From Clostridia bacterium (GTDB lineage: Bacteria; Bacillota; Clostridia; Oscillospirales; Acutalibacteraceae), in assembly GCA_017465825.1 (NCBI GenBank), contig JAFTVI010000029.1:62001-126000 (forward strand): a DNA stretch of 64,000 nucleotides, in the 5' to 3' direction. Of the stretch, positions 17,512-62,829 are shown piece by piece (the stretch's first letter is position 1; every line of letters begins with the position of its first letter). The translations under genes were made by a program, and so were the position numbers. A model generated the notes under the pieces. The model ran no database searches. It was given only the letters and a program-made list of their open reading frames with translations, and had not been told where the DNA came from.

Positions 17512-17542
17512 TATGCGCTGTGTGTGAGATTCGCAAATCGAA

Positions 17543-18419: not shown

Positions 18420-18448
18420 AGTGTACAGTCCTTTCTGTATCTGTTTGG

Positions 18449-30774: not shown

Positions 30775-30803
30775 ATTATATAAAATACCTATTATTTTGT
30801 CAA
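30775..30803 (-). promoter_or_regulatory. Perfect consensus promoter of the ABC operon
   Basis: On the minus strand TTGACA (30798-30803), 17-base spacer, TATAAT (30775-30780). Confidence 0.8.
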
Positions 30804-36156: not shown

Positions 36157-38019
36157 ATGTCCTTTCTACCCATATCAAAAGACGAAATGCTTGAACGCGG
36201 CTGGTACTACGCGGATTTTGTGCTTGTTACCGGTGATGCATATGTGGACCATCCGTCTTTCGGCACGGCGATTATCTCCCGTGTGCTTGAAAACGCAGGT
36301 TACAGGGTATGTATTCTACCTCAGCCGAAAACCGATGCGGATTACACCCGATTCGGCAAGCCGAGGTACGGTTTTCTTGTGAACGGCGGCAACATTGACT
36401 CTATGGTTGCCCATTACACAGCCGCCAAGAAACCGCGAAGTGACGATGCATATACTGCAGGCGGCAAATCGGGTGCAAGACCTGACAGAGCAGTTATTGT
36501 ATATTGCAAAAATATAAGAAAGCACTACGGTGACGTACCCATAGCAATAGGCGGACTTGAGGCATCATTACGACGTTTTGCTCATTACGATTATTGGGAT
36601 GATAAGGTTCGTCCTTCAATTCTCATTGACTCCACAGCCGATCTGCTTATGTACGGAATGGGCGAAAAGCATATCGTTGAAATTGCAGACAGACTCAAAA
36701 GCGGTGAAGATATACATTCGCTTACAGATATAAAAGGCACCTGCTACTGCGTAAAAACAAAGGATTACAAGCCGATGCCCGTCAAGGAATGTCCGAGCTT
36801 TGAGGCTGTTTCAGCCAACACGGAGGAGGGCAAAAAGCAGTATGCAAAATCCTGCCGGATTCAGCAGGACGAGCACGACGCCGTAAGAGGAAAAACTGTC
36901 ATTCAGCGTCACGGTGACACTATAGTCGTTCAGAATCCGCCTATGCCTCCCCTTTCAACCGAAGAAATGGATGAGGTCTATTCCCTCCCCTTTATGCGCA
37001 CCTATCACCCCTCATACGAAGCTCTCGGCGGTGTACCCGGAATTGAAGAAGTCAAGTTTTCAATCATTCACAACAGAGGATGTTACGGTGCCTGTAATTT
37101 CTGCTCCCTTGCATATCATCAGGGCAGACAGATAAGCTGCAGAAGTCACGATTCCGTTATTGAAGAAGCTAAAAAAATCACCGAAATGGAGGATTTCAAA
37201 GGCTATATTCACGATGTTGGCGGTCCTACGGCAAATTTCAGAGCACCCTCCTGCGATGCACAGCTGAAAAGAGGACTTTGCCCCGATAAAAAATGTCTTG
37301 CGCCGTCAGTATGTCCTGCCGTTAAGGTTGACCACAGCGATTATTTAAGTCTGCTGCGAAAACTGCGTGCATTACCCAAAATCAAAAAGGTATTTATACG
37401 TTCAGGCATCCGTTTTGACTACCTTATTGCAGATAAAGACGAAACATTCTTCAAAGAGCTTGTGGAGCATCACATCAGCGGTCAGTTAAAGGTTGCACCT
37501 GAGCATTGCTCAGCAAATGTTCTCAGAAGAATGGGCAAGCCGCCTATTGAGGTCTACAACCGATTCAAAAAGCGTTATTACGAGCTGAACAAAATAGCTA
37601 ACAAAAATCAGTATCTTGTGCCCTATCTTATGTCATCCCATCCGGGAAGCACCGTTGAGGATGCAATAGAGCTTGCACGATTCCTTAAAAAAGAGGGTCT
37701 TCATCCTGAACAGGTACAGGATTTCTACCCCACTCCCGGTACGGTTTCAACCTGTATGTTCTACACGGGACTTGACCCTTACACAATGGAAAAGGTCTAT
37801 GTACCGAGAACTCCGCAGGAAAAGGCAGAGCAGAGGGCATTGCTACAGTATTTCAGACCCGAGAACAAAAAGCTTGTTATCTCTGCACTTAAAAAAGCAG
37901 GCAGATACGATCTTATAGGCACAGGTCCGAACTGTCTTGTAGCGCCCGAAAAGCCGGCAAAACAAAACAATTTCAAAAAAGATTTTATTAAAAAGAATCC
38001 AAAAAGAAGAAGAAAGTGA
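36157..38019 (+). CDS. YgiQ-family radical SAM protein
   Basis: 620 residues, the usual YgiQ size. N-terminal DUF3362/YgiQ domain ([34 protein letters not shown]), then the radical-SAM loop [21 protein letters not shown] with CxxxCxx[14 protein letters not shown]-like segments, a Cys pair in [16 protein letters not shown], and a strongly basic tail (KKNPKRRRK). It binds a 4Fe-4S cluster and S-adenosylmethionine; its true substrate is not established. GGAG lies before the ATG. Its terminator follows at once. Confidence 0.92.
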
Positions 38020-38050
38020 CAGAGAACAATCTCTGCCACTTTTGTTTTTA
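38013..38050 (+). terminator. Terminator after ygiQ
   Basis: Stem AAAGTG-a-CAGAGA/TCTCTG-c-CACTTT, followed by TGTTTTT. It lies between convergent genes and overlaps both ends. Confidence 0.75.
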
Positions 38051-41000
38051 TTCAGTTTGTTCTTCAAGCTGTTCAGGTGTGATTTTTATATTACCGACAA
38101 CATACTGCAAGCGATCACCGTCGGGCGTTGCTACATACAGCATTACATAATAATTGCCCGCGGAGGTAAACTGATAATTTATTGCAGAATTATTTGGGGT
38201 ACTTTGCCATTTGACACGCTGTCCGTCCTTGTAAAAATACCAATCAATAGAATAATCCCAGAAATAATCAACTGTTGCAGAAATCTGAGCACAGTCGTCT
38301 GACGTAAATTTAATTGCCACATTGGAAATTTTTACTTCCTGACAATTGTCCGTACCGTCAACGATCTCAAACAGCTTTGATTCCTGATTGAACCGGAATG
38401 AACAGATAACGCCTTTTATTCTGTAGCCGTCGGGAGTTTTAACCTGCATAACTACTACGGAATCACTGTAAAAAGGAATATAAACCTGCATCGGCGCCGG
38501 TGTTACAATTTCCTGCTCCAGAAGAACATTACGCCACTTTTTATCCAGACAGGATATTTTGATTTCAGTTGAGTCAGGTAAAGAAGCTTTTGATTCAACG
38601 ATAAGATTTTTTCCCTTAAAATTCACACTGAAATCAGACATTGAAATTCTTGCTCTGTGGGTGAGCTTTATTTCGCTGTCACCAATCATTAAGGTATCGT
38701 TATCCGTTTGCTTTGCGTCAACGTAATCAAGCTGATTTTTCTCAAGAGTGATAACAGTGACAAAATCTGTGCTTTTTGCCTTTTTTGAATACAGCAAAGA
38801 ACTGCAGGGAACGGTTTCGGATACTACTCTTGAACGATAACCGAATTCTGAAGAACCGTCCTGAGAGCCGATTATACGGCAGTTACAGGCGGAGAGCTGC
38901 CTTATACGCACAATGTAGGGTGAATCATCTATTTTTGCAAGCAGTTCGTTCTCAGCCTGCGCAATAATGGCGAGCTTTTCCGAAATATGGAACTGCTGTG
39001 TATAGAGATGCTCTTTATCGGATTCAATATTGTCGTGAACAATAAATATATTATCCTTAAAGAAAATCTCTCTGTCGATTTTTACCCCCTCATAGCTGTC
39101 GTTATAACCTGCCGCGCAGTTGAATTCACCCTGAGCTTCCCTCTTTAAAAGACCCGTTTTGTAGCCTCTTTCAGCGGTTATGGGGTAGGTTTCGGAATCA
39201 ACAGTAACAGTGTTATGACCGAATACGGAGTGAAGCGTTTCCGTTGTAAAATCGCCGATCTGATAACCGTATTTGCCTCGGTCAATGAAGATTTCACTTC
39301 CGTGAGCATTGAGCATAAAATGCAGATCGTCGGCGTGTTTGTTTTTTGCAGAAGCATATCCGGATTTAAACATAAACCAGACGGCATCCTCCATCTGCTC
39401 CTTTTTCCATGAGCTGCGGTACGCATAATAACCGCCGTCAGGGAATACAGCTGTGTTGCCTTCGGGCTTTTTGCCTGCACGCCCCTGTGACATAGCCCAA
39501 TCTATTTCGGGACAGTTAAGATAACGGTAACCTTTGTATGCGTTAGCATTATAAGCATCAGTCGCTCTGCCGTTTGTGTTACCGATTTCAGCCAACGCGC
39601 CGTCGGGCTTTATCATATAGGATAAAAACTTTGCGGCAAGTGCGAGCTTCTTTCTGTAAAAATTGAACTCCGGATCGTTTGCATATGCAAAGATTTTCTC
39701 AATTTCCCTGAACAAGCCAATAACTGACAGCTGATATTCGGGGGAATTTTCCATATGAACCATATCAGGAAGGAACGCGTGCTCAAATTGCAGCTTCAAT
39801 CTCTTTTTCGCAAGTGATATCCATTTTTTCGACTGCTCATTCTGAAGAAAATATGAAATATACAAAAGTGCGCAATCCTGATAGATACCGTATGTGTGGT
39901 TCCGGATATATCTCTCCTCATTGCAGAGATGTTCAGCTGTTTTCTGGAAAATCTCATCAATAAGAGCTGTTTTTCTGCAGTCGAGAAGACCGTGCATCTC
40001 ACAGATGATGGCAAGATAAATCAAATGGTTTATCCTTGCAGACATTGTATGGCTGTGCCAACACATCGTATTTTGCTTTGATTTGTCGCTCTTTTCATAC
40101 TCATTCCAGCTGTAAACAAACCGCCACGCATAATCAATATATTTACGGTTTTGCGTAAGCTCAAATGCATAAGTCAGATACATAACCGACCTTAAATTCT
40201 GCAATTGCATCTGATATGCCTCTGCAGCTTCAGCCGCCGTAATATTCCAATCAATATTCCATATGCAGTAAGGCTCAGCCTTGAGCGTATTGCGCACAAT
40301 CAGTTGCCCGTGAAGAAGCTGTTCTGCGATTTCAACAGCAGAATTTTTATCGGGTTTCTGCAGAGATGCAGGGAATTTTTTAATCCCGAAGCCGTATTTC
40401 TTCTCTTCGGCAACAGGATACTGTATCTCATCACATACCCAGGTCTGTCTGTCACCGTCAGCAGTCTGAATTGAATACACAAGAGTATATTTGCCTTCCG
40501 AATCAGGTTCAAGAATATACTCATTTATGTTTTTTGTATATTTGTAGCTGTACACACCGCCGTTGCGATAAAACAGCCAATGAACGGTATATTCTTCTTC
40601 GGAAAAGCAATTTAAACTGAATTTGATTTTGTTGCCGTCAACAATTTCCCATTGAGGTGCATCACGGCGAATCTTTACGGGAATAAGCTCTCTGTCAAGC
40701 TTTTTCAGCTTTGCTTTGATTCTGCCGGATATTCTGCCTGTATTGGGATTAAAACCGAGAGGCTTCAGCGGCTTATCTTCTTTTTCTATGGTTATTTCCG
40801 TTACAAAACGGCAGTTCTGCGTATTGTCTCTTGTAAAAATAAGAGTATTTATGCCGTGAATCTCGCCCATTTTACAGGATGCAATACCTGTATGCACTCC
40901 AACCTCATTACCGTTCTGAATATCGCAAAAAGTACCGCCCTCAAGCTGAGTTATGCGTACAACGTATCCGCTGTCGGCAATTCTTCCTATAAATTCGGTA

Positions 41001-42418
41001 TCGGTTGCACTTATGATTTCAATGTGTTCACTTAAATGGAAATGCTGAGAATAATTATGCTCTGCGTCGGAGATTATATCGTCGTGAAGCAGTAAAGTGT
41101 CGCCCTTGCGGTAAACGGCTCTGTCAATACTGACACCGTCATAGCCGTCATTTCTGCCTCGGATATACGTGCAGTCACCTGAAAAATCCTTTTCGATGAT
41201 TTTGCTTCTGTTTACACGCTGAGCGCAGATGCTGTAAGTTTTTCCGTCAACAACAACTGTATTGTGTGCCGGAGCACCCGTTACGTAAGAACGGATTTTG
41301 TCGCCGTAAACATAGTTATAGCGTCCACAGTCAATAAAAACGGGATAGCCTTTACTGCTGAGAAGAATTGATAAATCATCTGCGTGCTTGTGAACATTCG
41401 TCACTGCACCTGCTTTGAACATAAACCAAGTGTCTTTTATTGTTTCATCAATAAAATTACGGGCAAAGAAATACCCTGCATTCTCATAGAATGCATAATT
41501 TTGCTCCGGCTTTATGCCTTCCGTACCGCAGGAGAGGAAATATTTGCACAAATTGCCGTGTTCATCAATATTGTAAGCACTTGCATCAAGATTATCGTTG
41601 TCGCTGTCGCCGACCAGAGCAAACTGACCGTTGGGTTGAATAAACCATGCAAGAAAATCATCACTTTTTTCACAGCATTGATGAAGAAATTCCATTCCGT
41701 CAAGAGAATCTGTCTGTGAAAGAAAAACATACAGTGCCTGCAATGCAGTCCAGACATAATACTGATAGGACGGTGAATTTTCGGAATGTGCACCGTCGGG
41801 CAGATATGCGAATTCACACTGTTTTTTCAAACGGGTTATTGCAATTTCCTTTTCTTCACCGTGCTCACCGAGCAATATGCAGGCGCACAGCACGGCGCGG
41901 TCCATAAAAATTCCCTGATTTGCATTGGGGATATAATTTTTTTCATCTGCAAGAAATGAAATATGTCTGTTTAAAATTTCCCTTGCACCGTCAGATATTT
42001 CATCCTTTCCGCAGAAGAAATAGTATAACAGAGAAATAAGGCGCATAGCAGTAGTATGAGAATTCCATACAAGAGTATTTCCGTTTACCTTGTCACTGCT
42101 GATGTATGCCATCCACGATTCAAAATATCCGTCAGCAAGATTGATATACTCTGTATTACCCGTAATATTGTATGCACAAACAAGCATAGACAGGTGAACC
42201 TGAGCATGCAAAGACATCTGAAAGGTGTTGCCTGTGTTGCCTGTATTGATATTCCAATCAAAGTTTTCAATTCCCTCGCAGTCAAGAATGGGAACGGTAG
42301 GTGAAACATACAGATGATTATTTGCAATTCCGTCTGCCAACGATATAACATCATCATTTTTTTCAGGTATGTTTTCAAGGAGAGGGCGCAGCAAAACTTC
42401 GATTTTTTTTCGATTCAT
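38048..42418 (-). CDS. Tandem double heparinase II/III-like protein with Ig-like domains
   Basis: 1456 residues with no signal peptide or membrane helix, so probably cytosolic or exported by another route. It is built of two full heparinase II/III-like units, at about 1-590 and 680-1330. Unit 1 has the family motifs H211-x-E213-NSPxYQ, HKHADD (343-348) and AHNTVVVDG (384-392). Unit 2 repeats them 677 residues later (H888-x-E890-NSPxYQ, NKHADD, GHNTVTVDS), but with Asn in place of the first His of HxHxD. Each unit ends in an Ig-like domain (WLFYRNG...GDRQTWV and WYFYKDG...GDRLQYV). The start is ATG 42418, overlapping the GT2 stop as TAATG. Heparinase-fold proteins cleave uronate-containing glycans; whether this one degrades or modifies the operon's product is unknown. 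Confidence 0.85.
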   Translation of the reverse strand: MNRKKIEVLLRPLLENIPEKNDDVISLADGIANNHLYVSPTVPILDCEGIENFDWNINTGNTGNTFQMSLHAQVHLSMLVCAYNITGNTEYINLADGYFESWMAYISSDKVNGNTLVWNSHTTAMRLISLLYYFFCGKDEISDGAREILNRHISFLADEKNYIPNANQGIFMDRAVLCACILLGEHGEEKEIAITRLKKQCEFAYLPDGAHSENSPSYQYYVWTALQALYVFLSQTDSLDGMEFLHQCCEKSDDFLAWFIQPNGQFALVGDSDNDNLDASAYNIDEHGNLCKYFLSCGTEGIKPEQNYAFYENAGYFFARNFIDETIKDTWFMFKAGAVTNVHKHADDLSILLSSKGYPVFIDCGRYNYVYGDKIRSYVTGAPAHNTVVVDGKTYSICAQRVNRSKIIEKDFSGDCTYIRGRNDGYDGVSIDRAVYRKGDTLLLHDDIISDAEHNYSQHFHLSEHIEIISATDTEFIGRIADSGYVVRITQLEGGTFCDIQNGNEVGVHTGIASCKMGEIHGINTLIFTRDNTQNCRFVTEITIEKEDKPLKPLGFNPNTGRISGRIKAKLKKLDRELIPVKIRRDAPQWEIVDGNKIKFSLNCFSEEEYTVHWLFYRNGGVYSYKYTKNINEYILEPDSEGKYTLVYSIQTADGDRQTWVCDEIQYPVAEEKKYGFGIKKFPASLQKPDKNSAVEIAEQLLHGQLIVRNTLKAEPYCIWNIDWNITAAEAAEAYQMQLQNLRSVMYLTYAFELTQNRKYIDYAWRFVYSWNEYEKSDKSKQNTMCWHSHTMSARINHLIYLAIICEMHGLLDCRKTALIDEIFQKTAEHLCNEERYIRNHTYGIYQDCALLYISYFLQNEQSKKWISLAKKRLKLQFEHAFLPDMVHMENSPEYQLSVIGLFREIEKIFAYANDPEFNFYRKKLALAAKFLSYMIKPDGALAEIGNTNGRATDAYNANAYKGYRYLNCPEIDWAMSQGRAGKKPEGNTAVFPDGGYYAYRSSWKKEQMEDAVWFMFKSGYASAKNKHADDLHFMLNAHGSEIFIDRGKYGYQIGDFTTETLHSVFGHNTVTVDSETYPITAERGYKTGLLKREAQGEFNCAAGYNDSYEGVKIDREIFFKDNIFIVHDNIESDKEHLYTQQFHISEKLAIIAQAENELLAKIDDSPYIVRIRQLSACNCRIIGSQDGSSEFGYRSRVVSETVPCSSLLYSKKAKSTDFVTVITLEKNQLDYVDAKQTDNDTLMIGDSEIKLTHRARISMSDFSVNFKGKNLIVESKASLPDSTEIKISCLDKKWRNVLLEQEIVTPAPMQVYIPFYSDSVVVMQVKTPDGYRIKGVICSFRFNQESKLFEIVDGTDNCQEVKISNVAIKFTSDDCAQISATVDYFWDYSIDWYFYKDGQRVKWQSTPNNSAINYQFTSAGNYYVMLYVATPDGDRLQYVVGNIKITPEQLEEQTE

Positions 42419-43359
42419 TATGCTTCCCACCCTAAGCTTCTGATTTTTTCCTCACATCTGTCAAGATGTTCTTTATACCACTCCTGAACCCAATCTTTAA
42501 TATCTGCATCAGCCATAGGCACGATATTTTTTGTTGTGTTCATAAGTCTGTTTATTAAAACTCTGCATTCGACTGCAGATACGATTTTTTCCTGCTGTTT
42601 TTTGGAAAGATACTCACAGAAAATATCAAATATCTGATCACGGTCAACATATTTTTTCTTTCCGTAAGACTGCGTAGTTGAAGGATTGGATTCGTCGTCG
42701 CGCTCTGTTCTGAAATAAACGTAAGCGTCAAGTACAGAAATGTTTTCCGCCTCAATCCATGATTTAAGCGTGAATACCATATCCTCCCAGAAACATCCTT
42801 CCGCAAAATCAATATCACAGTTCAGCATCCATTTTGCATCATAAATTTTTGCACAGGGTCCGCCAAGCATATACTTATGAGGCTCGATATATCTTAATTT
42901 GCCCGTTTCTGTAAGATAACCGTTCACCAAGGCATCAATATATTCAACGGCAAAACACTTGTGCTCCTTATTCCAGAGCATTCTGCCTATTGATATTTCT
43001 GACTTTGTTTCTAAGATTCTGCCCAACAGCAATTCTACTGCATCAAGAGGCAGTGTGTCATCTGCGTCAAGAAATACGATGTAGTCACCGGTTGTAATCT
43101 CCAGCGCTCTGTTGCGTCCTGCACCCTGTCCCATATTCTGAGGCTGATAAATAATTTTTATTCTGCTGTCTTTTTCTGCATGCTCCTCAACAATTTTTAT
43201 TGAATTATCTTTACCGCAGTCATCAATAACAATTATTTCAAGATTCTTATGAGTCTGATTTTCTGCAGATGAAAGACAGGCATCAATATACTTTTCAACA
43301 TTGTAAACAGGAATAATAATTGTTACAAGATAGTCTTTTTGCATTTTATTCACTCTCAT
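42418..43359 (-). CDS. Family 2 glycosyltransferase
   Basis: 313 residues from ATG 43359 (MRVNKMQKDYL, with GAGG upstream; alternatives are 43368 and 43344). GT-A fold: VTIIIPVYNVEKYIDACLSSAENQTHKNLEIIVIDDCGKDNSIKI, then IVFLDADDTLP carrying the DxD metal motif and FWEDMVFTLKSW for the acceptor-side acid. No membrane helix. It transfers an unknown sugar. Its stop overlaps the heparinase-like start, and its start lies in the end of the CgeB-like gene, so the four-gene operon is fully coupled. Confidence 0.88.
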   Translation of the reverse strand: MRVNKMQKDYLVTIIIPVYNVEKYIDACLSSAENQTHKNLEIIVIDDCGKDNSIKIVEEHAEKDSRIKIIYQPQNMGQGAGRNRALEITTGDYIVFLDADDTLPLDAVELLLGRILETKSEISIGRMLWNKEHKCFAVEYIDALVNGYLTETGKLRYIEPHKYMLGGPCAKIYDAKWMLNCDIDFAEGCFWEDMVFTLKSWIEAENISVLDAYVYFRTERDDESNPSTTQSYGKKKYVDRDQIFDIFCEYLSKKQQEKIVSAVECRVLINRLMNTTKNIVPMADADIKDWVQEWYKEHLDRCEEKIRSLGWEA

Positions 43360-43360
43360 T

Positions 43361-45394
43361 TTATTCATCCTCACTGTTGTTATCGGGAATTTGTATGAGC
43401 TCATCGGGAAATGCATTAAGTATAAGCTCCTTGATTACAAAAGCAGAACGGTTTGTTATAACTGCAAACAATGAGAACTTCTTTATGTTGTCCGCCATTG
43501 GGCAGCGAAGATACTGACCGGGAAGAATAACCGTTGAACGGACAACTTTATTATCATCATCTTTGAACTGGATTATAAATTTTGTGTTATAGCTGTAGCC
43601 GCCCAGATGAATTCGTATCCAACCGTCTATATTGTAATCCTCAACAGCGTAATCGTCTGTTAATTTAACATATATATTTTTGTATTCGGTAAGCAGAGAG
43701 TATAAACCTACGGCACCGTTATTGAGCTCCATCGTGTTGTAAACTGCAGGATTTTTGGAAAATTCAGCTGAAAGCTCAACACCTGACTTTCTGTGGGGCA
43801 TTTTATAATTAATATCAGCAGGCAGATTGAGCGCGTAATCCCACAAATAATCCATATCTACACCGCAGTCAATGTCAATATCCTCAACATCTTCGCAGAA
43901 ATCACCCTTGAAGCCTTCACAGAAATGGAACATATCCGTAGACATTGTTACAAAGCCTTCAATCAGCTTGTTCTCCGTAAACGTATTCATTGGCAGAACA
44001 GTAGCCGCACTGCGGGTAAAAATACATCTGTCAGCAAGCACACGGTCTGTAACAATATATGCTTTTGATTTATCAACAGCCGTGAAATTACCGTCTGTCC
44101 ATTTGTAATATGCACCCTTGCCGAAAACGGCGGCGGAGGAATATCTGCGTGTGAGAAGGAAGTCGGAAATATACTGCGTGCCGTAATAGTTTTCAGGACT
44201 TAAATAGCAATAATAGTCTGCATCAGCAAGCTCGCTGACGCTGTTTACCTTTATATTTCTTACAAATGTGATGTTGTCATCACTTGCACATATATGAGGT
44301 GAATCAATAACGAGAGTCTTGTTTTTATATGCGAATCTTCTGAATGATGCAATTACTCGCTCTGTATCCTCCAACGTTTTCGCTGTTGAGAAACAGCACA
44401 CTCTCATTTCGGGCTCAGAATAATCTTTGCCCATAGCATCTCTGCAGATTGATACCATTCTGTGATAATAAGTATGCTGACTGAGCACCTTTCTCAGGCC
44501 GAGAAGGCGGACTCTGTCGCTGTACATAACGTCTGTTGCGCGACGGTTGAACTCCTCAACATCATCAAGGTCCTGAAGAACGATATCGCCAAGAAGTGTT
44601 TTTATGCCCGAACAGGGGTTTGAAACGGAAAGAGTGTTACAGGCAAGCAATTCAAAAATTCGTCTTGCTTCCATTGTTGATGAACGCTTTACAATGTTCA
44701 TTGTAAGGCTCCAATCGTAGCCCTTATATGCAACATCAATCTTATTCATAGGAAGAGATCCGACGATCATATGCTGATACTGTTCGGGGAAAGTATAGTC
44801 GGGGTTGCCCGGATATACGTTTCTGTCGTAGATAGCAAAGGGCATTTTGCTCTTGAACAAATCTACAATCTGAATAAAGTCCTGACAGCGTTCAGCCTGC
44901 TTTGCATAGTAGCTTCCTGCAAAACAGCAACCGGGCTTACGCTCATATTTTTCAATGGGCGTAAACATTTTTGTTTCAACAGCAAAAGGAAGAACACCTA
45001 CGTTGTTGTGATGAAGCATTCTTTTGTAAAGAGGGACACAGTCCATATCGGTGGTATATACCCAGTCAAAGTATGCCGCCGCACCTAAAAACGTGTCAAA
45101 GTGAACAGGGTCTTCCTTGTTCCAGAAAACGGTGGGAATACCGTTTGCTCTGCACCAGTTCATCATACCTATAAATGCGGGATCAAGGTTATAAACACGC
45201 CTGTACCATTTGTTGTTTACACCGTGCCAGGCAGATTCGACAAAAAGCAATTGCGGACGGAAATCTTCAAGTTCCTTTTCCCAATTTTCATAAGTGAGAT
45301 TTAAGTATTTACAGTCAAAAGGAAAACAAAAACAGCTGAGCTCATCAAGTATTCCCGCAACCCGTAATTCTTGTAAGGAATTTTTTTCGCTCAT
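43361..45394 (-). CDS. CgeB-like glycosyltransferase
   Basis: 677 residues. The first about 330 resemble the CgeB/glycosyltransferase family 1 pair: SAWHGVNNKWYRRV, PTVFWNKEDPVHFDTFL, then the C-terminal Rossmann part with FAGSYYAKQAERCQD and ARRIFELLACNTLSVSNPC, the donor-site signature of Glyco_trans_1_2. The second half (350-560) looks like a short GT2-type or hydrolase-like domain (LVIDSPHICASDDNITFVRNI, DADYYCYLSPENYYGTQYISD), and the last about 120 residues are beta-rich, perhaps carbohydrate-binding. No membrane segment. In B. subtilis CgeB works on spore-surface glycans. The first four bases overlap the coiled-coil gene. Confidence 0.75.
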   Translation of the reverse strand: MSEKNSLQELRVAGILDELSCFCFPFDCKYLNLTYENWEKELEDFRPQLLFVESAWHGVNNKWYRRVYNLDPAFIGMMNWCRANGIPTVFWNKEDPVHFDTFLGAAAYFDWVYTTDMDCVPLYKRMLHHNNVGVLPFAVETKMFTPIEKYERKPGCCFAGSYYAKQAERCQDFIQIVDLFKSKMPFAIYDRNVYPGNPDYTFPEQYQHMIVGSLPMNKIDVAYKGYDWSLTMNIVKRSSTMEARRIFELLACNTLSVSNPCSGIKTLLGDIVLQDLDDVEEFNRRATDVMYSDRVRLLGLRKVLSQHTYYHRMVSICRDAMGKDYSEPEMRVCCFSTAKTLEDTERVIASFRRFAYKNKTLVIDSPHICASDDNITFVRNIKVNSVSELADADYYCYLSPENYYGTQYISDFLLTRRYSSAAVFGKGAYYKWTDGNFTAVDKSKAYIVTDRVLADRCIFTRSAATVLPMNTFTENKLIEGFVTMSTDMFHFCEGFKGDFCEDVEDIDIDCGVDMDYLWDYALNLPADINYKMPHRKSGVELSAEFSKNPAVYNTMELNNGAVGLYSLLTEYKNIYVKLTDDYAVEDYNIDGWIRIHLGGYSYNTKFIIQFKDDDNKVVRSTVILPGQYLRCPMADNIKKFSLFAVITNRSAFVIKELILNAFPDELIQIPDNNSEDE

Positions 45395-45948
45395 TTGCTT
45401 TCACCAGCTTTTTTTCTGTTTTTTATTTTTGCAATAATACCCTTGTTAAGTTCATTCTCAAGCGTTGCAACCTTTACTTTGTAAGTGTCAATATGAGATG
45501 TTGCCATACGGTATTTTGCGTTTGCAGCTGTAAGATTTTGTTTTATATTATCACATTCAGCAACCTTGTTCTCATATTCTTTTTCAAGAGCATCGTATTC
45601 TTTCTGTAAGGCAACAAATTCTTCATTTAATTCAGCAAGCTTTGCTCTGTCTGCATTCAGAGATTGTGTTACATTACGGTATTTCAGCTGTGCTTCTTTA
45701 AATCGGGGCTGCATATCCTGATACTGAGCTTGTACATTCTCATATTTTGTTTTCAATTCCTGATACTGTGTCTGTATATTCTGATATTTTGTCTGAACAT
45801 CACGGTATTTCAACTGTGCATCCTGAAGTTGATTTTTAATATTTGCATTATCTGCTGCTTCCTTTAAAAGAATTTCATTCTCAGCTGTAAGTGCAAGCAA
45901 TCTTAATGTCAATAATTCGATTTCTCTTTTCTGTTCAATGTTCGACAT
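45391..45948 (-). CDS. Coiled-coil protein with Tyr heptads
   Basis: 185 residues from ATG 45948 (GAGGTGG upstream). Nearly all is coiled coil. Residues 47-95 are seven near-identical heptads of the form KYQxxQT, with Tyr or Phe at 48, 55, 62, 69, 76, 83 and 90, encoded by roughly 21-bp DNA repeats (45664-45810). The C-terminus is basic (IAKIKNRKKAGESK), so it could bind membrane phospholipids or partner proteins. No enzyme motif. As first gene of the operon it could scaffold the glycosyltransferases, but this is inference. Promoter is a perfect consensus. Confidence 0.78.
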   Translation of the reverse strand: MSNIEQKREIELLTLRLLALTAENEILLKEAADNANIKNQLQDAQLKYRDVQTKYQNIQTQYQELKTKYENVQAQYQDMQPRFKEAQLKYRNVTQSLNADRAKLAELNEEFVALQKEYDALEKEYENKVAECDNIKQNLTAANAKYRMATSHIDTYKVKVATLENELNKGIIAKIKNRKKAGESK

Positions 45949-46008: not shown

Positions 46009-46037
46009 ATTATATCATTGTATATAATTTTTGTCAA
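46009..46037 (-). promoter_or_regulatory. Perfect consensus promoter of the coiled-coil/GT/heparinase operon
   Basis: On the minus strand TTGACA (46032-46037), 17-base spacer, TATAAT (46009-46014). Confidence 0.8.
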
Positions 46038-46095: not shown

Positions 46096-46126
46096 TTCAT
46101 TACAAACCGATTACGGAGTGATAATA

Positions 46127-48313
46127 ATGTTTGACTTTACACGATTTTACATAGTTTCAGATAACGCAAAAGCGGAAGAGATACTTGCTGACGAGCTTAA
46201 AAAAAGAGGATTTTCTGCCTGTGCCGATGGCAAAAAGCTTGAATTAATAACCGATAGCGGTATTGACAGAGATTCATACAAAATTGAGCTTAATGCTGAC
46301 GGCTTATGCTTTTTTGCAAGCGGAATAAGAGGTTTCGTTTACGCAATAGGCAGATTTTTAAGAAAAACCGAGTACAGAAACGGCAGTATTACACTTACTG
46401 ATGATATCAGCGGTGAATATTCCCCCTATATGCAGATAAGAGGTCATCAGCTCGGTTACCGTGACAACGCAAACACTTACGAAGCCTGGGATATTGTTAA
46501 GTATTACGATTACATAAAAGAGCTTATGTACTTCGGATGCAATGTTTTTGAGCACACGGTTTTTCACGAAAAAGACCTTAAAAAGCCGCATATGAAATAC
46601 TCACAGCTTGATTTTGTTACACTTTGCAACGAAAAGGCAAAGACCCTTGATATTGATATCTCCTATTGGTGTCCGAACGATAAGGAAAAATCCTATGACA
46701 GTCTGCGCGAAAGAGCTGATTTCTTTGCAAATCAGAAATATGCGGATATATATTTTCCGCCCAGCAGTGACCCCGGAGATTTTACGGTAGACGAAGCATT
46801 TGATATGATAATTCCGATGGCGAGAGAGCTCAAAAAGAGCCATCCGGAAATTAAGATTTACCCCTCAGCTCAGTCCCCCGACGGTTTCGGCAAATGGGGT
46901 GATGATTTCATTGAAAAAATGAGCGATTTGCCCGAAGAAATCGACGGTATAATCACAGGTCCGAACTGCGCTATGCCCTTGCACGAGCTGAGAAAACGCC
47001 TGCCGAAAAAATATCCGATCCGCCTTTATCCCGATATCACTCATAACGTGCGGTGTGAATATCCCGTGCATTTTGACAGGGATGATTGGCATTATGCGTT
47101 GGCGTCAACATTAAGCCGTGAAGCAATCAATCCCAGACCCTGCGAATACAGAACGATTCACCGCCTTACAAGGCAGTATATCATCGGCAGTGTTTCATAC
47201 TCCGAAGGCATCAACGACGATATCAACAAATTTGTATGGAGCGATATGGATTTCGACCCGAATGTTTCCCTCGAGGAATCTCTTGCCGACTACGCAAGAC
47301 TGTTCTTCTTCGGCGCAGATACGCAGAAGCTCGTAAACGGTATTTTCGGTCTTGAAAAGAATTGGGAGGGTGACCCTGCGGAAAATCCTCATATTGAAAC
47401 AACGTTGAAATTTTTTGAGGATGCACTTACAGAGAATCCCGGGCTGTACGGCAACGTGCGTTTTCTTATGTGCCTTTTCAGAGCGAAATGCGATATGCTT
47501 GTAAAGATGCGCAGATGCACGGAGCTTGAGCTTATAAAAAAGGCAAAATATCATCTTGCAAAAAATGAAATTGATATTGCCGAAAAAATACTCAACACGC
47601 CCTTTACCGACGAGTATAATTCCCTGCGTGACGGCATTTCTGAAATCGGTAAGCTCCTGTTTGAAAAGGCGGGAATGCAGCTTGATGTGGAGCATTATTT
47701 TGCATCGGGCGTGGAGAGAGGTGCAACCCTGGACACCATTGATATGCCCGTAACGGACAGAAAATGGCTTCTTGACAGAATTGAATATTCCAAAACTCTC
47801 GTCGGAAATGAGAAAGCGGAGTTTATAAATGCCGTACTTGACAGAAACAAAATCCGCAAGGGTGAATATTATTTTTCATTTGCGGAAAACAGCTTTACAG
47901 AGCTGGGAATACCTCAGGAGCCTTATTTCTATATGAATTTTCAGGGCGACAGAGTTGAAGTCAACAATGGCACAATACCTATGTCAATGCTCAAGGTGTT
48001 TGACCATTATTCATTCCGTATGAAAACAGGCGGTCTTGATGAGGGCGATTACAACCTCATTCTCAATATCAAGCCACGGTACGACGATTCCGTTAACGAA
48101 TTTACAATAAAAATCAACGGCAAGGTGCTTTATTCAGGTGCACAGTACGGCGGTGAAAGAGATGAAAAGGCTGAAAAGTGGCTCTCTGCACCGGGATTTG
48201 AAGTGAGAAAATATAAGATTCCTGCTTCATACATCGAAAACGGCTGTATCGAGCTTGAAATCACCGAGCCGAAAATCGGTATAATGCTCAGTGAAATTTT
48301 TATCAGAAAATAA
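46127..48313 (+). CDS. Glycoside-hydrolase-like protein (GH20b-type N-terminal domain)
   Basis: 728 residues from ATG 46127 (CGGAG upstream, just past the promoter). Residues 1-100 show the small alpha/beta domain that precedes GH20/GH67 barrels (DSYKIELNADGLCFFASGIRGFVYAIGRFLR). The middle 110-420 looks like a TIM barrel (YMQIRGHQLGYRDNANTYEAWDIVKYYDYIKELMYFGCN; YFPPSSDPGDFTVDEAF; ITGPNCAMPLHELRKRLPKKYPIRLYPDITHN). The C-terminal about 120 residues are a beta domain, probably sugar-binding. It is likely an intracellular exo-glycosidase acting on hexosamine or uronate ends; no signal peptide. The exact family is uncertain. Confidence 0.6.
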   Translation: MFDFTRFYIVSDNAKAEEILADELKKRGFSACADGKKLELITDSGIDRDSYKIELNADGLCFFASGIRGFVYAIGRFLRKTEYRNGSITLTDDISGEYSPYMQIRGHQLGYRDNANTYEAWDIVKYYDYIKELMYFGCNVFEHTVFHEKDLKKPHMKYSQLDFVTLCNEKAKTLDIDISYWCPNDKEKSYDSLRERADFFANQKYADIYFPPSSDPGDFTVDEAFDMIIPMARELKKSHPEIKIYPSAQSPDGFGKWGDDFIEKMSDLPEEIDGIITGPNCAMPLHELRKRLPKKYPIRLYPDITHNVRCEYPVHFDRDDWHYALASTLSREAINPRPCEYRTIHRLTRQYIIGSVSYSEGINDDINKFVWSDMDFDPNVSLEESLADYARLFFFGADTQKLVNGIFGLEKNWEGDPAENPHIETTLKFFEDALTENPGLYGNVRFLMCLFRAKCDMLVKMRRCTELELIKKAKYHLAKNEIDIAEKILNTPFTDEYNSLRDGISEIGKLLFEKAGMQLDVEHYFASGVERGATLDTIDMPVTDRKWLLDRIEYSKTLVGNEKAEFINAVLDRNKIRKGEYYFSFAENSFTELGIPQEPYFYMNFQGDRVEVNNGTIPMSMLKVFDHYSFRMKTGGLDEGDYNLILNIKPRYDDSVNEFTIKINGKVLYSGAQYGGERDEKAEKWLSAPGFEVRKYKIPASYIENGCIELEITEPKIGIMLSEIFIRK

Positions 48314-50422: not shown

Positions 50423-52189
50423 TCATCCCTTATAAACGCCTTCTACGGAAACGCCTTCTTCCATTGCCTTTTTCTCCGTAACCTCGGCACGGCGTTTGAG
50501 AACCTCCATAACCATATTCTGCTTTTTACTGTCGTAATCCCAGAACAGGTACGGAATAGTCATAAGGAAGAAACCTACAACGTCAACAATAAGGGGAATT
50601 GCAATAATGCTTCTTCGTGATGCATCAACAAAAAGCACGTCCCAGTTGCTGTTAAAGCCGTATTTAAGGAGAAGAATAGGAATAATAAGACCTACGAATG
50701 ATGTAATAGGTCCTGTAAACCAACCAAATACGCCTGCAAAGCTTTCAAGACGTTCACCTGAGAGGTACATCTGATAGTCACCTATACGCACATTCATATC
50801 GTGACCTGCCGTTGTGGGAACAGTTTTTGTCATTTCCATAAAGAACATTACAACAATACATATTATGCCGCAAAGAGTAAGATTCTCACCGCAGAACCAG
50901 ATCGCCGCCGCAATAATACCGTAGCCTATGGCTCGGCTGAGCTGATAGAAAATCATTATCTGCTTGTATGAAAATCTCTTTAAGAAATAGGGTGAAAGCA
51001 GATCGGGCGGAGTTCCCGCAAAGGAAATCAGCGCAACGATAAGGCTGTAAGGCAGACCGCTCAGACGGAACGTATAGAAATACAGAATCGTAACGAAGGG
51101 CAGCATACCGTTACCCAGCGAATCTATAAGTCCGACTATGGTATTTATGAGCAGGTATTTGTTTTTAAGCACACCGAACATACCGTCCCAGAATTTAATC
51201 TGTACTTTCTTTTCGATGGGCGGCTGAGGTATACGCTCTTTTATTCTGCCTGCAAATACCATTGTAAGGGCGGCAAAGGTAATGAATGTAATGGGGATAA
51301 CGAATCTGTAAACATTGATGTCTGCCCACTCATAACGGAGCATACCGATGATGACGGGAAGAATAATTGCCATAATTGAATTGAAAATATGGGAAATCTT
51401 GATAGGATAGCTTCTTACAAGGATTCTTTCCTGAAGATTGGGACTGATATTTTTTGCGCAGGTTTCAAGGTTATTGGCAAAGCCGAACACATTGTATGTA
51501 GCAAACAGCAGATTAGCAACCCATACACGTGTTGCAACATCGGGAATCTCGTAAACGGGAAGCCAACCGATAAGGATAACCATTACGCACTTGGGTACGA
51601 CGTCACAGTAAAGTGAATACTTGTATCTGCCGTATTTGGGAAGAAGCTTTTTACGCCAGAAAATATTTCGCGCGCCGACCCAGCCGGTATACAGGAAATG
51701 CGTACCGAAGGTTTTAAAGCACGCCGTTGCACTCATACCCTCAAGTCCGTTCAGATAGGTTATAAACGCACTTGATTGGTTGAACAGAAGCGAATAATCG
51801 AAAATAATCGTAGATATGCCGAAAAGCATCATTCCTATGTAAACACCGTAGAACTTCTTTTCGGTCTTTTTAGGCAGAAAGCCTAAGTTATCGCACACAA
51901 ACCACCACATCAGCGCAGAAATATAGCCAAGCGGCATATTTAAGATACCGATAACGGAAAACGTGAGATAGGGCAGCTTGTAATGATGCATTATAAGGTA
52001 ACACGAGGACCAGAAACCTATGTATTCAAGGATTTTTGAGCCTGCGTAGTTACTGCCGACTGCAACAACCACATCTTTATACTCTTTATAGGGAACATAC
52101 TTACCCTGAGCAGGAGTATTCCAATGAGTTTTGATTTCAGTAGCGAATGATCTGACAGTATCAAGGACTTTGCCTTTTTTGTCACTCAT
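50423..52189 (-). CDS. Major facilitator/GPH-type transporter
   Basis: 588 residues from ATG 52189 (AGGAGGTCGG upstream). About 12 membrane helices with a long N-terminal cytosolic segment (about 60 residues) and an inter-domain loop (GRIKERIPQPPIEKKVQIKFWDGMFG). The layout suits glycoside-pentoside-hexuronide:cation symporters, and the context (GH-type genes, LRR surface protein) fits oligosaccharide uptake. No specific substrate motif can be named. First gene of a two-gene operon. Confidence 0.72.
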   Translation of the reverse strand: MSDKKGKVLDTVRSFATEIKTHWNTPAQGKYVPYKEYKDVVVAVGSNYAGSKILEYIGFWSSCYLIMHHYKLPYLTFSVIGILNMPLGYISALMWWFVCDNLGFLPKKTEKKFYGVYIGMMLFGISTIIFDYSLLFNQSSAFITYLNGLEGMSATACFKTFGTHFLYTGWVGARNIFWRKKLLPKYGRYKYSLYCDVVPKCVMVILIGWLPVYEIPDVATRVWVANLLFATYNVFGFANNLETCAKNISPNLQERILVRSYPIKISHIFNSIMAIILPVIIGMLRYEWADINVYRFVIPITFITFAALTMVFAGRIKERIPQPPIEKKVQIKFWDGMFGVLKNKYLLINTIVGLIDSLGNGMLPFVTILYFYTFRLSGLPYSLIVALISFAGTPPDLLSPYFLKRFSYKQIMIFYQLSRAIGYGIIAAAIWFCGENLTLCGIICIVVMFFMEMTKTVPTTAGHDMNVRIGDYQMYLSGERLESFAGVFGWFTGPITSFVGLIIPILLLKYGFNSNWDVLFVDASRRSIIAIPLIVDVVGFFLMTIPYLFWDYDSKKQNMVMEVLKRRAEVTEKKAMEEGVSVEGVYKG

Positions 52190-57463: not shown

Positions 57464-59071
57464 TTAATCCAAGGCTTTTTCTGCTGCTTCTCTCAGGCAA
57501 AAGCCCGTAAGAATTACAGCATCGGAATTGTATGCATCCATAAGCTCCCTGAGCGTTTGTTTGTTATATAGTGAAGGCTCTTCCCACACAGCACATATTG
57601 CATCAAGCACATCACAGCACATTGCAAACTTTTTTGTCCATTTGCCTATTTCCGCAAAAAGCGGCACGGATGTGTCCTGTATCATTGCAAGACATTCACG
57701 CATTTTTGCATTGTATTCTTTAAATCCGACAACTGCCTGCTCCTTTTGTCCCGTAGCCATAAGGAAACTCAGGTGAGAAAGCTTATCACTCATAAGCTGT
57801 GAGCCGTAGCGTGATACACAGGAAACACAAAGGTGGTCCGCGATATATTTAAAAAGCTCTGACTTTTCACCGAGAATCGCAGTCTGTGCATTCTCAAGAG
57901 ATTTTTCGCTGTCGTACGCCTCGGGATTCCACAGGTAATCGGCAATCGTTATAAGTGGGATTTTTGAACACTCTGCATACTCCATAACATTGGCAATAAG
58001 ACCTTCGCTGTGGCGGTACAAGTCAGCATCCCTGTTTCTGAGTGCGCCGAGATGCATTTCCTGAAACATCTCCGCATCGTTTACGGGATAGTTGTCCCAA
58101 TAGAGCGGTCTGTGGGATGTGGCAAGTGCAAAATCATCCGCCTCACGGGTTGTAAGAAAGCCTGAGCAGATTTCTCTGCCTGTCCAGAAAATATTGACAG
58201 CCGAAGGGATGCCCTGTCCGAACCGAGTTATGTAATGCTCATTGCCTTTGCCGAAATACTGAGTCGGGCAAACTGTAAGCTCAATTGATGAATCAAAGGC
58301 TTTGAGTGTATTGTAAGTGTTGTTTATAAGTGCGATATGGGCAGACACAATATCATCGTATTCCGCTGCATCCTCCTCATACTGAAAATTGTTGGGAATA
58401 TCATCAAGAAGCAAGCCGAAATTGCGCACACCCAATGAATACACGCTTTTGATTTTATTAATCAAGGTATCAAAATCGGCTGAGCTTGTGTATTTATACG
58501 TAAGTCCGGGGCCGATACACCAACAGAAATCAAGCTCGTTTTCCGTTGCCGCATCAAAGAGCATTTTAAGCTCGTTCATCTCTTTTTCGGGGTAAAGCTC
58601 ACGCCATTTTGCTCTGTGAAATTCGTCATCCTTGGGAGCATAGTAAAAGCTGTTCATACCGTACCGCGCCATAAGCTTCATTACGGACAGGCGGTTTTCG
58701 GTTTTCCAGGTATGACCGTAAAAGCCTTCGATATAACCTCTGCGTGCAAACAGCGGATAATCTTCAAGAGTGCCCGTTTTCAGTTCACCCCTTGTAATCA
58801 GCTTTGCAAGAGTGTTTACTGCCCTGAAAACTCCTCTGCGGCAGAAAGCCTCGACAGTTGCACCCTGTTCCGTTACGGTAATAAAATATTTTTCGTCATC
58901 AGACTGAGCATCTGCAAGCTTTATTTCAACGTTAAAGCCACCGTGGATGTTGATTCCGCAGTCGGACAGTATTTTTTCAGCTAAATCTTTATATTCACCA
59001 TTAACGGTTACCGCATTTACAGCTACAGCCGAGCCGTTAAGGTTGTTTTTCCGGGGTACAGGATAAATCAA
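57464..59071 (-). CDS. GH84 beta-N-acetylglucosaminidase (O-GlcNAcase-like)
   Basis: 535 residues with no signal peptide. Short N-terminal alpha/beta domain (1-105), then the GH84 barrel: ARRGYIEGFYGHTWKTENRL (109-128), FYYAPKDDEFHRAKWRELYP (142-161) and the catalytic Asp pair LLLDDIPNNF (D223, D224), as used in substrate-assisted cleavage of GlcNAc. It should release GlcNAc from glycoproteins or hyaluronan-like chains inside the cell. The start is a TTG whose codon overlaps the SIS gene stop; AGGAG lies about 12 bases upstream, a long spacing. Third gene of the operon of GlcNAc salvage. Confidence 0.87.
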   Translation of the reverse strand: MIYPVPRKNNLNGSAVAVNAVTVNGEYKDLAEKILSDCGINIHGGFNVEIKLADAQSDDEKYFITVTEQGATVEAFCRRGVFRAVNTLAKLITRGELKTGTLEDYPLFARRGYIEGFYGHTWKTENRLSVMKLMARYGMNSFYYAPKDDEFHRAKWRELYPEKEMNELKMLFDAATENELDFCWCIGPGLTYKYTSSADFDTLINKIKSVYSLGVRNFGLLLDDIPNNFQYEEDAAEYDDIVSAHIALINNTYNTLKAFDSSIELTVCPTQYFGKGNEHYITRFGQGIPSAVNIFWTGREICSGFLTTREADDFALATSHRPLYWDNYPVNDAEMFQEMHLGALRNRDADLYRHSEGLIANVMEYAECSKIPLITIADYLWNPEAYDSEKSLENAQTAILGEKSELFKYIADHLCVSCVSRYGSQLMSDKLSHLSFLMATGQKEQAVVGFKEYNAKMRECLAMIQDTSVPLFAEIGKWTKKFAMCCDVLDAICAVWEEPSLYNKQTLRELMDAYNSDAVILTGFCLREAAEKALD

Positions 59072-59796
59072 AGGTGCTTTATCTCCTTTTTATATTTTTC
59101 AACAAGCAGGTTGTTTATTTCGTCACCGCCGTCGATATTGGAAGATGCAAAATGGTCAGGCTTAAAGCCCTGTTTTGCACAGATATCAACAGCTTGGGCA
59201 ACAACGGCATTAAGAATCAGCGCGCCGCAGACGGTGGACGTGGGACATATTTTACCCTCAATTCCGTCAACATCAATACAGGCATCACCCACACAGCCGC
59301 CGTTATCAAGCACGATATGAGCAATTTCACAAAGGCGTTTTCCGCTTTTGTGCCGTGATGCGCCCGACAGTGAATGTGAGAGATTTGTAAGAGCGATAAC
59401 ATTAAGGCCCTTTTCACGGCAGAGCATAGCCATATCAACAATAACGCCGTTTCTGCCCGAATTTGAAATGATTATAACAGTATCATCCGCACTCATTGAG
59501 TAGTCGTTGAAAATTTTTTCAGCCATACCCTCTTTACGCTCGGCAAGAGTGCTTGCGGATGCAGAAATATGGAGCATAAGCTCATCAATAAGTATAGGCT
59601 GAATGTTTACAAGACCGCCTGCACGGTAAAAAAGCTCCTCGGCAAGCATATGTGAATGTCCCGTGCCGAAAAGATATATTCTTTTGCCTTTTATCAGCGT
59701 CTGCGCCGTAATTTCAGCCGCTTTTTCTATGTTTTTGCCGTCAATTTTTTCAATAATCGATTTAACGTTTTCTATGTATTCTATGTATTTTTTCAT
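59068..59796 (-). CDS. SIS-domain protein (UPF0309-like)
   Basis: 242 residues. A phosphosugar-binding SIS fold: KGKRIYLFGTGHSHMLAEELFYRAGGL at 35-61, DDTVIIISNSGRNGVIVDMAMLCREKGL, then IALTN. The His-containing GTGHSHMLAEE and PDHFASSNIDGGDE ends match UPF0309 proteins that accompany sugar kinases; a MurQ-like etherase or amino-sugar isomerase role is possible. It overlaps the kinase gene by one base (TAATG) and the GH84 start by four. Confidence 0.82.
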   Translation of the reverse strand: MKKYIEYIENVKSIIEKIDGKNIEKAAEITAQTLIKGKRIYLFGTGHSHMLAEELFYRAGGLVNIQPILIDELMLHISASASTLAERKEGMAEKIFNDYSMSADDTVIIISNSGRNGVIVDMAMLCREKGLNVIALTNLSHSLSGASRHKSGKRLCEIAHIVLDNGGCVGDACIDVDGIEGKICPTSTVCGALILNAVVAQAVDICAKQGFKPDHFASSNIDGGDEINNLLVEKYKKEIKHL

Positions 59797-60683
59797 TACA
59801 GTTTCCTCGCAAGAATCAATGCGCCCTCTTCGGCAGGTGTATCAAGAAGCTTTATGCAAACGGTGGGATATTTTTCTTTGATTTCAGCCGAAAAAACACT
59901 CGTAAACAATTCATTATGACGGAACACTCCGCCGTAAAGACCGAGCACATCACAGCCGTCGAGCAAATCAAGCACAGTACGGGAAAATGCCTTCGCCTCA
60001 GTACGGATAATTTCTAAAGCATCAGCGTCACCATCTTCAGCAAGCTCGCCTACATTTTTTGCAAAACCCGCTAAAATATCCTTTGTGGTCTGAGAGGAAT
60101 AAATAATATCTGTCGCATCCCTGAAATTCTCCACACCGAAAAATCTGTTTGCACTGCTGAGCAGGGGTGTTTCCTCTCCTCTGTCGCACATACGGCAACA
60201 GCACTTCAATGCATTAACGGCGATTGAATAGGCTGAGCCTTCATCGCCAACAATGTGACCCCAACCGCCTGAAATACGGATATTGCCCTGTTTATCCTCA
60301 GCAACAGCCATTGAGCCTGTGCCGCAGACCGCCACACAGGGACATTCTGCCTCACCCACAGATTTAAGAGCGATATAAACGTCGCTGTTCATTCTGATTT
60401 TTTTTGCTTTTACAATGCCGCCGCACAGCTTTCCGACAAGTTCTTCGTCGGCTTCACCGTCCAATGCGGAACAGCCGATAAAAGCGCTCTCAAACTCCTT
60501 AATACCTGATACTGCATCTATTTCAACCAGTACATTTTCAAGGTTGAACCTCGCAGCATCCATACCTACGGAATAAAAATTGATGCTTTTGCCTGCCTGC
60601 TTCAGCAGGATATTTCCGTTTTCATCCGACACGGCTGCGACTGTTGTTGTGCCGCCGCCGTCTATACCAAGATAATATTTCAT
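59796..60683 (-). CDS. BadF/BadG-type ATPase, N-acetylglucosamine kinase
   Basis: 295 residues of the ASKHA fold: phosphate-1 motif YLGIDGGGTTTVAAVSDENGNIL (3-25), AVCGTGSMAV phosphate-2, SGGWGHIVGDEGSAYSIA adenosine region, and LYGGVF. It likely phosphorylates the GlcNAc freed by the GH84 enzyme at C6. It begins one base after the ceramidase-like gene. No nagA/nagB gene is in the window. Confidence 0.88.
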   Translation of the reverse strand: MKYYLGIDGGGTTTVAAVSDENGNILLKQAGKSINFYSVGMDAARFNLENVLVEIDAVSGIKEFESAFIGCSALDGEADEELVGKLCGGIVKAKKIRMNSDVYIALKSVGEAECPCVAVCGTGSMAVAEDKQGNIRISGGWGHIVGDEGSAYSIAVNALKCCCRMCDRGEETPLLSSANRFFGVENFRDATDIIYSSQTTKDILAGFAKNVGELAEDGDADALEIIRTEAKAFSRTVLDLLDGCDVLGLYGGVFRHNELFTSVFSAEIKEKYPTVCIKLLDTPAEEGALILARKL

Positions 60684-60684
60684 T

Positions 60685-62163: not shown

Positions 62164-62185
62164 AATTAAACCTCCTGCTGAAGTG

Positions 62186-62214
62186 TTGATTTTTCGTATC
62201 AATCTCTGTATAAT
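62186..62214 (+). promoter_or_regulatory. Promoter of the GNAT gene
   Basis: TTGATT (62186-62191), 17-base spacer, TATAAT (62209-62214). The transcript would start about 11 bases before the ATG. Confidence 0.65.
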
Positions 62215-62232
62215 GATTTACGGGTGATGATA

Positions 62233-62790: not shown

Positions 62791-62797
62791 TTATAAA

Positions 62798-62828: not shown

Positions 62829-62829
62829 A

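Follow-up and report, generated by a model that had tools for sequence, protein, structure and literature searches.

The stretch analyzed here, referred to below as the window, comprises 64,000 nucleotides of a Clostridia bacterium genome (contig JAFTVI010000029.1; Oscillospirales, Acutalibacteraceae), taken from an assembly, termed G000, of 2.2 Mb in 37 contigs that is 87% complete. Our analysis considered an operon of four minus-strand genes, which encode, in the order of transcription, a coiled-coil protein, a CgeB-like glycosyltransferase, a GT2 glycosyltransferase and a double heparinase-fold protein. Its features are as follows:
46009..46037, minus strand: sigma-70-type promoter, TG-extended (TTGACA-17-TATAAT)
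45391..45948, minus strand: coiled-coil protein, 185 residues (ATG at 45948, stop at 45391)
43361..45394, minus strand: CgeB-like glycosyltransferase, 677 residues (PF13524)
42418..43359, minus strand: GT2 glycosyltransferase, 313 residues (PF00535)
38048..42418, minus strand: tandem heparinase II/III-fold protein, 1456 residues (PF16889 and PF07940, two stretches each)
40349..42418, minus strand: heparinase half 1 (residues 1-690), conserved residues present
40379..40684, minus strand: Ig/Y_Y_Y-like module, tail of half 1
38051..40348, minus strand: heparinase half 2 (residues 691-1456), with Thr842 and Asn1026 replacements
38051..38368, minus strand: Ig/Y_Y_Y-like module, tail of half 2
38013..38042, minus strand: terminator-like hairpin of 13 pairs, then a T-rich tail (consensus scan)

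The coiled-coil and CgeB-like genes overlap by the four bases of ATGA, a single base separates the TAA of the latter from the GT2 ATG at 43359 (a further in-frame ATG lies at 43344), and the GT2 and heparinase genes overlap in TAATG. The coiled-coil gene has an additional in-frame ATG at 46002. The promoter matches the consensus at 12 of 12 positions, with TG preceding the -10 element, and the exact TTGACA-17-TATAAT pattern is present in two copies in the window, as compared with a mean of 0.02 in shuffled sequences. The hairpin, at 38042-38013, follows the last stop; the consensus scan found 18 terminator-like sites in the region versus 6.2 in shuffles. No typical hydrophobic stretch of a signal peptide or transmembrane helix was found in any of the four proteins by a crude Kyte-Doolittle test (highest 19-residue mean, 1.31). 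Both the coupling of four genes behind one perfect promoter and the lack of signal peptides, as given in a preliminary description made from this DNA alone, were thus confirmed, the latter within the reach of the crude test. The G+C content is 0.41 for the CgeB-like and heparinase genes, 0.38 for the GT2 gene and 0.34 for the coiled-coil gene, relative to 0.43 for the window, values that give no clear support to the operon being foreign DNA.

To place these genes, we surveyed 9-20 kb stretches around a long CgeB gene in all 11 genomes of the genus, with the loci concerned being examined in all frames. In 10 of the 11, a permease, an ATPase, a coiled coil, the long CgeB and a nucleotide-sugar dehydrogenase follow one another in this order, with WecB coming next in seven of these; near the long CgeB of the eleventh (G010), none of the other core-operon genes was found in any frame. 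The genome of the window itself carries the core operon at G000:C28 (locus L056), where an ABC-2 permease (ABC, ATP-binding cassette), a TagH/Wzt-like ATPase, a small coiled coil and a long CgeB/GT4 protein are accompanied by a UDP-ManNAc/UDP-sugar dehydrogenase (UDP, uridine diphosphate; ManNAc, N-acetylmannosamine) and WecB, with Asp2-like and DUF6270 genes behind. Beyond the genus, two genomes from two other families of the order (G243 and G314) present the permease, the ATPase, a coiled coil (202 and 163 residues, respectively) and the long CgeB in a row, flanked on one side by a dehydrogenase, a short CgeB and a GT2 and on the other by WecB, Asp2-like and asparagine-synthase-like sequences.

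The C28 WecB scores 531 bits against the wecB model (cut-off, 210). The dehydrogenase exceeds the general TIGR03026 cut-off, and its best specific model, the UDP-ManNAc dehydrogenase PRK11064, gave 369 bits, below the cut-off of 459. The best matches of the ATPase are teichoic-acid export ATPases, below their cut-offs. Together, WecB and the UDP-ManNAc-type dehydrogenase, whose genes are at C28 and not in the window, would predict the presence of N-acetylmannosaminuronic acid (ManNAcA) in the chain, and the uronate-type chain proposed in the preliminary description gains support from exporter operons that pair the coiled coil with CgeB. As the coiled coil precedes the long CgeB in 10 of the 11 genus genomes and in G243 and G314, the pair is conserved as part of an ABC-export glycan operon, and the earlier suggestion that the coiled coil is a partner of the CgeB-like glycosyltransferase is upheld by this position. 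The window operon is a second, diverged version of this arrangement. It contains neither an ABC-2 permease nor a Wzt/TagH-like ATPase gene, both of which are present at C28 and in the heparinase clusters of G120 and G096 described below.

The CgeB-like protein of the window matches PF13524 with 26.6 bits, above the gathering cut-off of 25 (44 bits for the C28 paralogue), and DUF3880 below its cut-off. It is 34% identical to the 1073-residue C28 paralogue and lacks the C-terminal GT4 domain of the latter. Used as query, it found matches in 14 of 148 genomes, including all 11 of the genus, where the match is a separate gene of approximately 1070-1110 residues and 34-40% identity. Four weak matches in Desulfarculales/Desulfarculus records, from a search of a contig collection, were judged uninformative and were not used. 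The GT2 (PF00535, 128.6 bits) had matches at E <= 1e-30 in two of 15 genomes, own included, and the match in G006 sits in a locus without the other operon genes.

The heparinase-fold protein found matches in 12 of the 148 genomes, own included. Its close relatives in the single-protein search are in G089 (9e-58), G120 (1e-42) and G096 (2e-41), the next best match being 2e-17. In G089, on a 10-kb contig, an 840-residue heparinase lies directly before a long CgeB. The single heparinase of G120 and the double heparinase of G096 lack an N-terminal hydrophobic segment and both lie inside WecB/WecC/ABC clusters that comprise a GT2, a dehydrogenase, three to four CgeB-type genes, a permease, an ATPase, WecB, Y_Y_Y-type proteins and a long CgeB-GT2 fusion, as well as proteins that resemble serine hydrolases by eye and have no Pfam family. 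The G120 fusion joins a coiled-coil-type N-terminus to CgeB and GT2 (2 of 5000 shuffles did as well in a heptad test), which again argues for the partnership of coiled coil and CgeB; in G096, this N-terminus is recognizable by eye only. Moreover, at G120:C31 (L061:1393-6905, minus strand), a long CgeB overlaps an FkbM methyltransferase that has a long, repeated coiled coil fused to it, and this methyltransferase-coiled coil with CgeB is the closest match to the architecture of WbdD that we encountered.

At E <= 1e-40, the heparinase is found in four of the 148 genomes, all of which are among the 14 with a CgeB match (single-protein queries; approximately 5e-5 if the genomes are independent). 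A profile-based count (3 of 3 among 5 of 394 genomes, approximately 1e-6) was replaced by this one, as it was partly circular: profile A1 holds the G000, G120 and G096 heparinases, and profile A2 holds G000 and G120 sequences. The profile-based CgeB search matched seven genomes, with five matches covering the N-terminal part and those in G099 and G169 being to the common GT4 part only. In a sample of the class, four of 391 genomes, own included, have the heparinase at E <= 1e-40; the G655 heparinase sits behind WecB- and WecC-like genes, which those of G590 and G726 do not. Among viral contigs, six stretches matched a pattern and none encodes a heparinase relative, and the genome contig collection gave no heparinase match. 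The glycan-assembly context assigned to the heparinase in the preliminary description was thus found for members of the same subfamily, which occupy or adjoin CgeB loci in two other genera.

The Ig/Y_Y_Y-like module was followed with a profile whose only sources were the tail of each window half and that of the G089 heparinase, searched against 354 open reading frames from 25 sources. At E <= 0.01, it matched 12 of these, two being sources of the profile. The matches include two small Y_Y_Y-type proteins, a long CgeB, two Asp2-like proteins and a deacetylase and, in the export machinery, one exporter permease and the exporter ATPases of G096 and G120; a further match, to a protein that looks secreted and is encoded next to the G010 CgeB, is biased and doubtful. 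An ABC-2 permease with a fused N-terminal Y_Y_Y-like module was observed at L089:1644-2789 (G089:C339).

On balance, we consider it just about probable that the window operon is an accessory, or satellite, module of an ABC-transporter-dependent pathway for an acidic surface glycan. It is described as working like, or as a satellite of, such a pathway rather than as a full member because the exporter genes are absent from it. In the cytosol, a lipid-linked chain would be extended by the CgeB-like protein and the GT2, while the coiled coil may space or scaffold the glycosyltransferases at the membrane, in the manner of WbdD/WbdA. The heparinase-fold protein would meet the same chain in the cytosol and act on it before export, with half 1 as the putative catalytic half, using beta-elimination to edit, cap or salvage uronate chains, half 2 as a putative chain-binding pseudo-enzyme, and the Ig/Y_Y_Y modules possibly helping to bind the chain. 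As the window operon encodes no exporter, the chain would leave via the distant C28 exporter. Judging by the gene neighborhoods, the chain would be lipid-linked and probably contains ManNAcA. Of the glycan-assembly-and-trimming machine that had been proposed for these genes, assembly, the partnership of coiled coil and CgeB and (from neighbors elsewhere) the uronate-type chain are thus retained, whereas trimming is not; the four-gene order is not conserved.

The closest known systems share only parts of this layout. In well-studied systems of ABC-dependent O-antigen assembly, the length of the chain is governed by an extended coiled coil that holds terminating and polymerizing enzymes apart, and the presence of a coiled-coil protein is regarded as a hallmark of this strategy (PMC11231755, PMC3482155). 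The WbdD/WbdA systems of E. coli O9a and K. pneumoniae O4/O7 resemble the paralogous and related clusters in the combination of a Wzm/Wzt-like exporter, glycosyltransferases and a coiled coil, in an extra ATPase domain (G096 and G120) and in the fusion of the coiled coil to a glycosyltransferase or methyltransferase (G120); the window operon itself resembles them in encoding a coiled-coil protein together with glycosyltransferases. They differ in that CgeB-family proteins replace the known polymerases, that a double heparinase-fold protein is present, that the window coiled coil lacks a terminator domain and that no exporter lies beside the window operon. Teichuronic-acid wall polymers, such as the ManNAcA-Glc polymer of Micrococcus luteus (PMC3005890), share the ManNAcA that WecB and a UDP-ManNAc-type dehydrogenase would predict here, and differ in their glycosyltransferases and in the ABC export predicted here. 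Like other CgeB-like/PF13524 glycosyltransferases, the window protein matches PF13524 above the cut-off; the partners of its paralogue, however, are an exporter, a dehydrogenase and a coiled coil. The familiar setting of CgeB-type glycosyltransferases is a spore-surface operon.

Several observations weigh against placing the operon in such a pathway and need to be considered. The gene order is not conserved across loci with the same heparinase subfamily: the preliminary description had proposed a search for the four-gene order in related genomes, and it is missing at all three other such loci (G089, G120 and G096), and the whole operon was therefore rejected as a conserved unit. In the genus, heparinase matches are absent from all 10 other genomes, some of which are only 70-87% complete. 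At five remoter heparinase loci (G335, G218, G390, G470 and G012), no CgeB was found in any frame. As for the co-occurrence count, its E cut-off was set after the matches had been seen, and G120 and G096 belong to one genus. The G089 heparinase has an N-terminal hydrophobic segment, and the N-termini of three further class-sample heparinases resemble export signals by eye; a cytosolic site is therefore not universal. The N-terminus of the G096 CgeB-GT2 fusion performed weakly in the heptad test (259 of 5000 shuffles did as well), and the window coiled coil aligns poorly with the core coiled coils and lacks their conserved GRLLLKIYR-like tail. Half 2 carries Thr842 in place of the conserved Asn and Asn1026 in place of the conserved first His. 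Finally, the Y_Y_Y-like module is also found elsewhere in the genome on apparently secreted, dockerin-like proteins, such that its role is not exclusive.

The heparinase-fold protein deserves a closer look at the level of residues. Its N- and C-terminal Pfam domains lie above the curated cut-off (169.7 and 62.7 bits), and the HepC heparin-sulfate lyase model NF045572 gave 62.3 bits, below its cut-off of 600. The best single PDB match is 4fnv, heparinase III. Across distinct domains, with two-locus duplicates counted once (34 or 35 domains, depending on the column), the Asn is conserved in 32 of 34, the Tyr in 35 of 35, the first His of the HxH motif in 33 of 34, and the second and third His in 34 of 34 each. 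Half 1 retains Asn167, Tyr218, His343, His345, Asp363 and His385, and half 2 retains Tyr895, His1028, Asp1046 and His1068. Half 2 is the sole domain of 34 without the first His, and the Asn is missing from it and from only one other domain, L074, which is possibly misaligned. Counted by hand, Thr842, Tyr895 and Asn1026 of half 2 align with Asn260, Tyr314 and His464 of 4fnv, which we take to be catalytic residues. The likeness to heparinase III (4fnv, 4mmh and 5jmd) thus lies in PF16889/PF07940 and in the Asn/Tyr/His set of half 1; the differences are the tandem arrangement, no signal peptide seen, the extra Ig/Y_Y_Y modules and the degenerate half 2.

In a tree of 32 rows, in which the G470 pieces are present twice, half 2 falls into one group with the domains of G089 and G120 (95/87), and half 1 branches immediately outside it (99/93). 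The halves of the G096 double heparinase, in contrast, are sisters of each other (100/100). Because the window halves are split and those of G096 are not, doubling probably arose at least twice, and that of the window probably predates the G089/G120 split. This double heparinase of G096, the second one met besides that of the window, lies at L054:7565-11395, has the conserved residues intact in both halves and adjoins an asparagine-synthase-like gene, a homologue of which lies approximately 11 kb from the core operon at C28 in the genome of the window.

We favor a division of labor in which half 1 would be catalytic and half 2 would bind. An alternative would be that both halves are pseudo-enzymes and that the protein serves as a glycan-binding clamp or length sensor and not as a catalyst, as the Asn and the first His are missing from half 2, and the residue after Asn167 in half 1 is Gln168, where the closest relatives have His. 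This we consider unlikely: half 1 keeps the Asn, the Tyr, both His residues of HxH and the third His, and the residue following the Asn is His in just nine of the 34 domains and Trp in 21. As half 1 keeps the conserved residues, we did not conclude that both halves are dead. Nonetheless, trimming by the heparinase, as given in the preliminary description, is not shown, the conserved catalytic residues being complete in half 1 only.

Less probable still is that the heparinase-fold protein is not a lyase but a polymer-level uronate C5-epimerase, acting on the chain while this is still lipid-linked and not yet exported. Work on a nascent chain by an enzyme that has no signal peptide would fit an epimerase, dermatan sulfate epimerase has the same fold and alters uronate stereochemistry in animals, and half 1 has a weak match to the Pfam family C5-epim_C (E 0.0011, 18.9 bits, below the cut-off of 23.3). 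Sequence comparison, however, turned up no epimerase. The 14 PDB profile matches comprise heparinase III, alginate lyases and a single 'heparinase II/III-like' protein, 13 in all, and an endoglucanase that aligned to the tail module only.

If the protein does cleave within a satellite module of the export pathway, a more specific scheme can be drawn, to which we assign a low probability. Here, the cytosolic tandem lyase would set chain length in place of a methyl or phosphate cap, with the coiled coil fixing the distance at which half 1 cuts, half 2 and the Ig/Y_Y_Y modules holding the chain and the unsaturated uronate end serving as the export signal. In the part of the open-access literature covered, we found no description of a cytosolic cleavage or epimerization step in chain export. 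Such a step, if true, would be new to wall-glycan assembly, and the operon raises the question of the intracellular task of a uronate-lyase-fold protein that has no signal peptide and would face a chain still under construction. The strategy of combining a coiled coil with an ABC exporter, known from Gram-negative O-antigens, is also suggested to exist as a conserved operon in this order.

The 185-residue coiled-coil protein has a clear heptad pattern. Eleven of its 12 Tyr/Phe residues share one register, as do nine of its 10 Tyr residues (equalled by none of 20000 shuffles), and one core position is most often Tyr, the other most often Leu, Ala or Val. As the aromatic residues occupy a heptad core position, the side chains of the Tyr residues are likely to be buried. 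Among the best 25 of 61 family matches, which are weak or of coiled-coil type, we found no terminator or other enzyme family; one, GAS, is barely above its cut-off. Used as query, the protein gave no convincing relative, with matches in three of 30 genomes, own included; those in G096 and G011 were taken as cross-matches between coiled coils and dropped. Its assignment as the counterpart of the conserved coiled coil is positional and does not draw on sequence similarity.

These data bear on the possibility that the CgeB-like protein and the GT2 glycosylate a protein, either the coiled coil itself or a protein of the spore or the cell surface. In B. subtilis, CgeB has been connected with glycosylation of the spore surface, and the coiled-coil gene is the first of the operon. 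However, Tyr residues in the core of the helix, where they are probably buried, are disfavored as glycan acceptors, and the long CgeB paralogue is grouped with exporter, WecB and dehydrogenase genes, such that this explanation appears decidedly improbable. Equally improbable is salvage, in which the double heparinase would degrade imported host or plant uronate oligosaccharides in the cytosol and the glycosyltransferases would be unrelated passengers: heparinase II/III enzymes are usually catabolic, the five remoter heparinase loci of the order lack CgeB and a 587-residue membrane protein without a Pfam family, transporter-like by eye, is encoded approximately 4.4 kb beyond the promoter (50423-52186), but the genes flanking the operon encode a radical-SAM protein and a 729-residue protein without a Pfam family and no unsaturated-uronate pathway, and the closest heparinase relatives lie in or beside biosynthetic clusters.

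Further features of the window were also recorded. The 729-residue protein (46124-48313, plus strand), which is divergent from the operon, has no Pfam family at E <= 1. The other perfect TTGACA-17-TATAAT promoter lies at 30775-30803 on the minus strand, with downstream genes that, by eye, encode an ABC substrate-binding protein, a permease and an ATPase. A set of genes at 57464-63915 (minus strand) comprises a beta-N-acetylglucosaminidase (PF07555, which we take to be GH84), a SIS-domain protein, a BadF-type sugar-kinase-like gene and a gene with a sub-cut-off ceramidase match, followed by a similar partial gene, and looks like one for host-glycan use. A cytidine diphosphate (CDP)-sugar cluster at 11302-21169 (minus strand) encodes glucose-1-phosphate cytidylyltransferase, CDP-glucose 4,6-dehydratase and RfbH, each above the curated cut-off, together with an acetolactate-synthase-like enzyme, presumably YerE-like, an NAD-epimerase-family gene, a PgfS-like GT2 (below cut-off) and a YfhO membrane protein. 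By its gene content, this cluster looks like one for a CDP-3,6-dideoxy branched-chain sugar that would be added outside the membrane.

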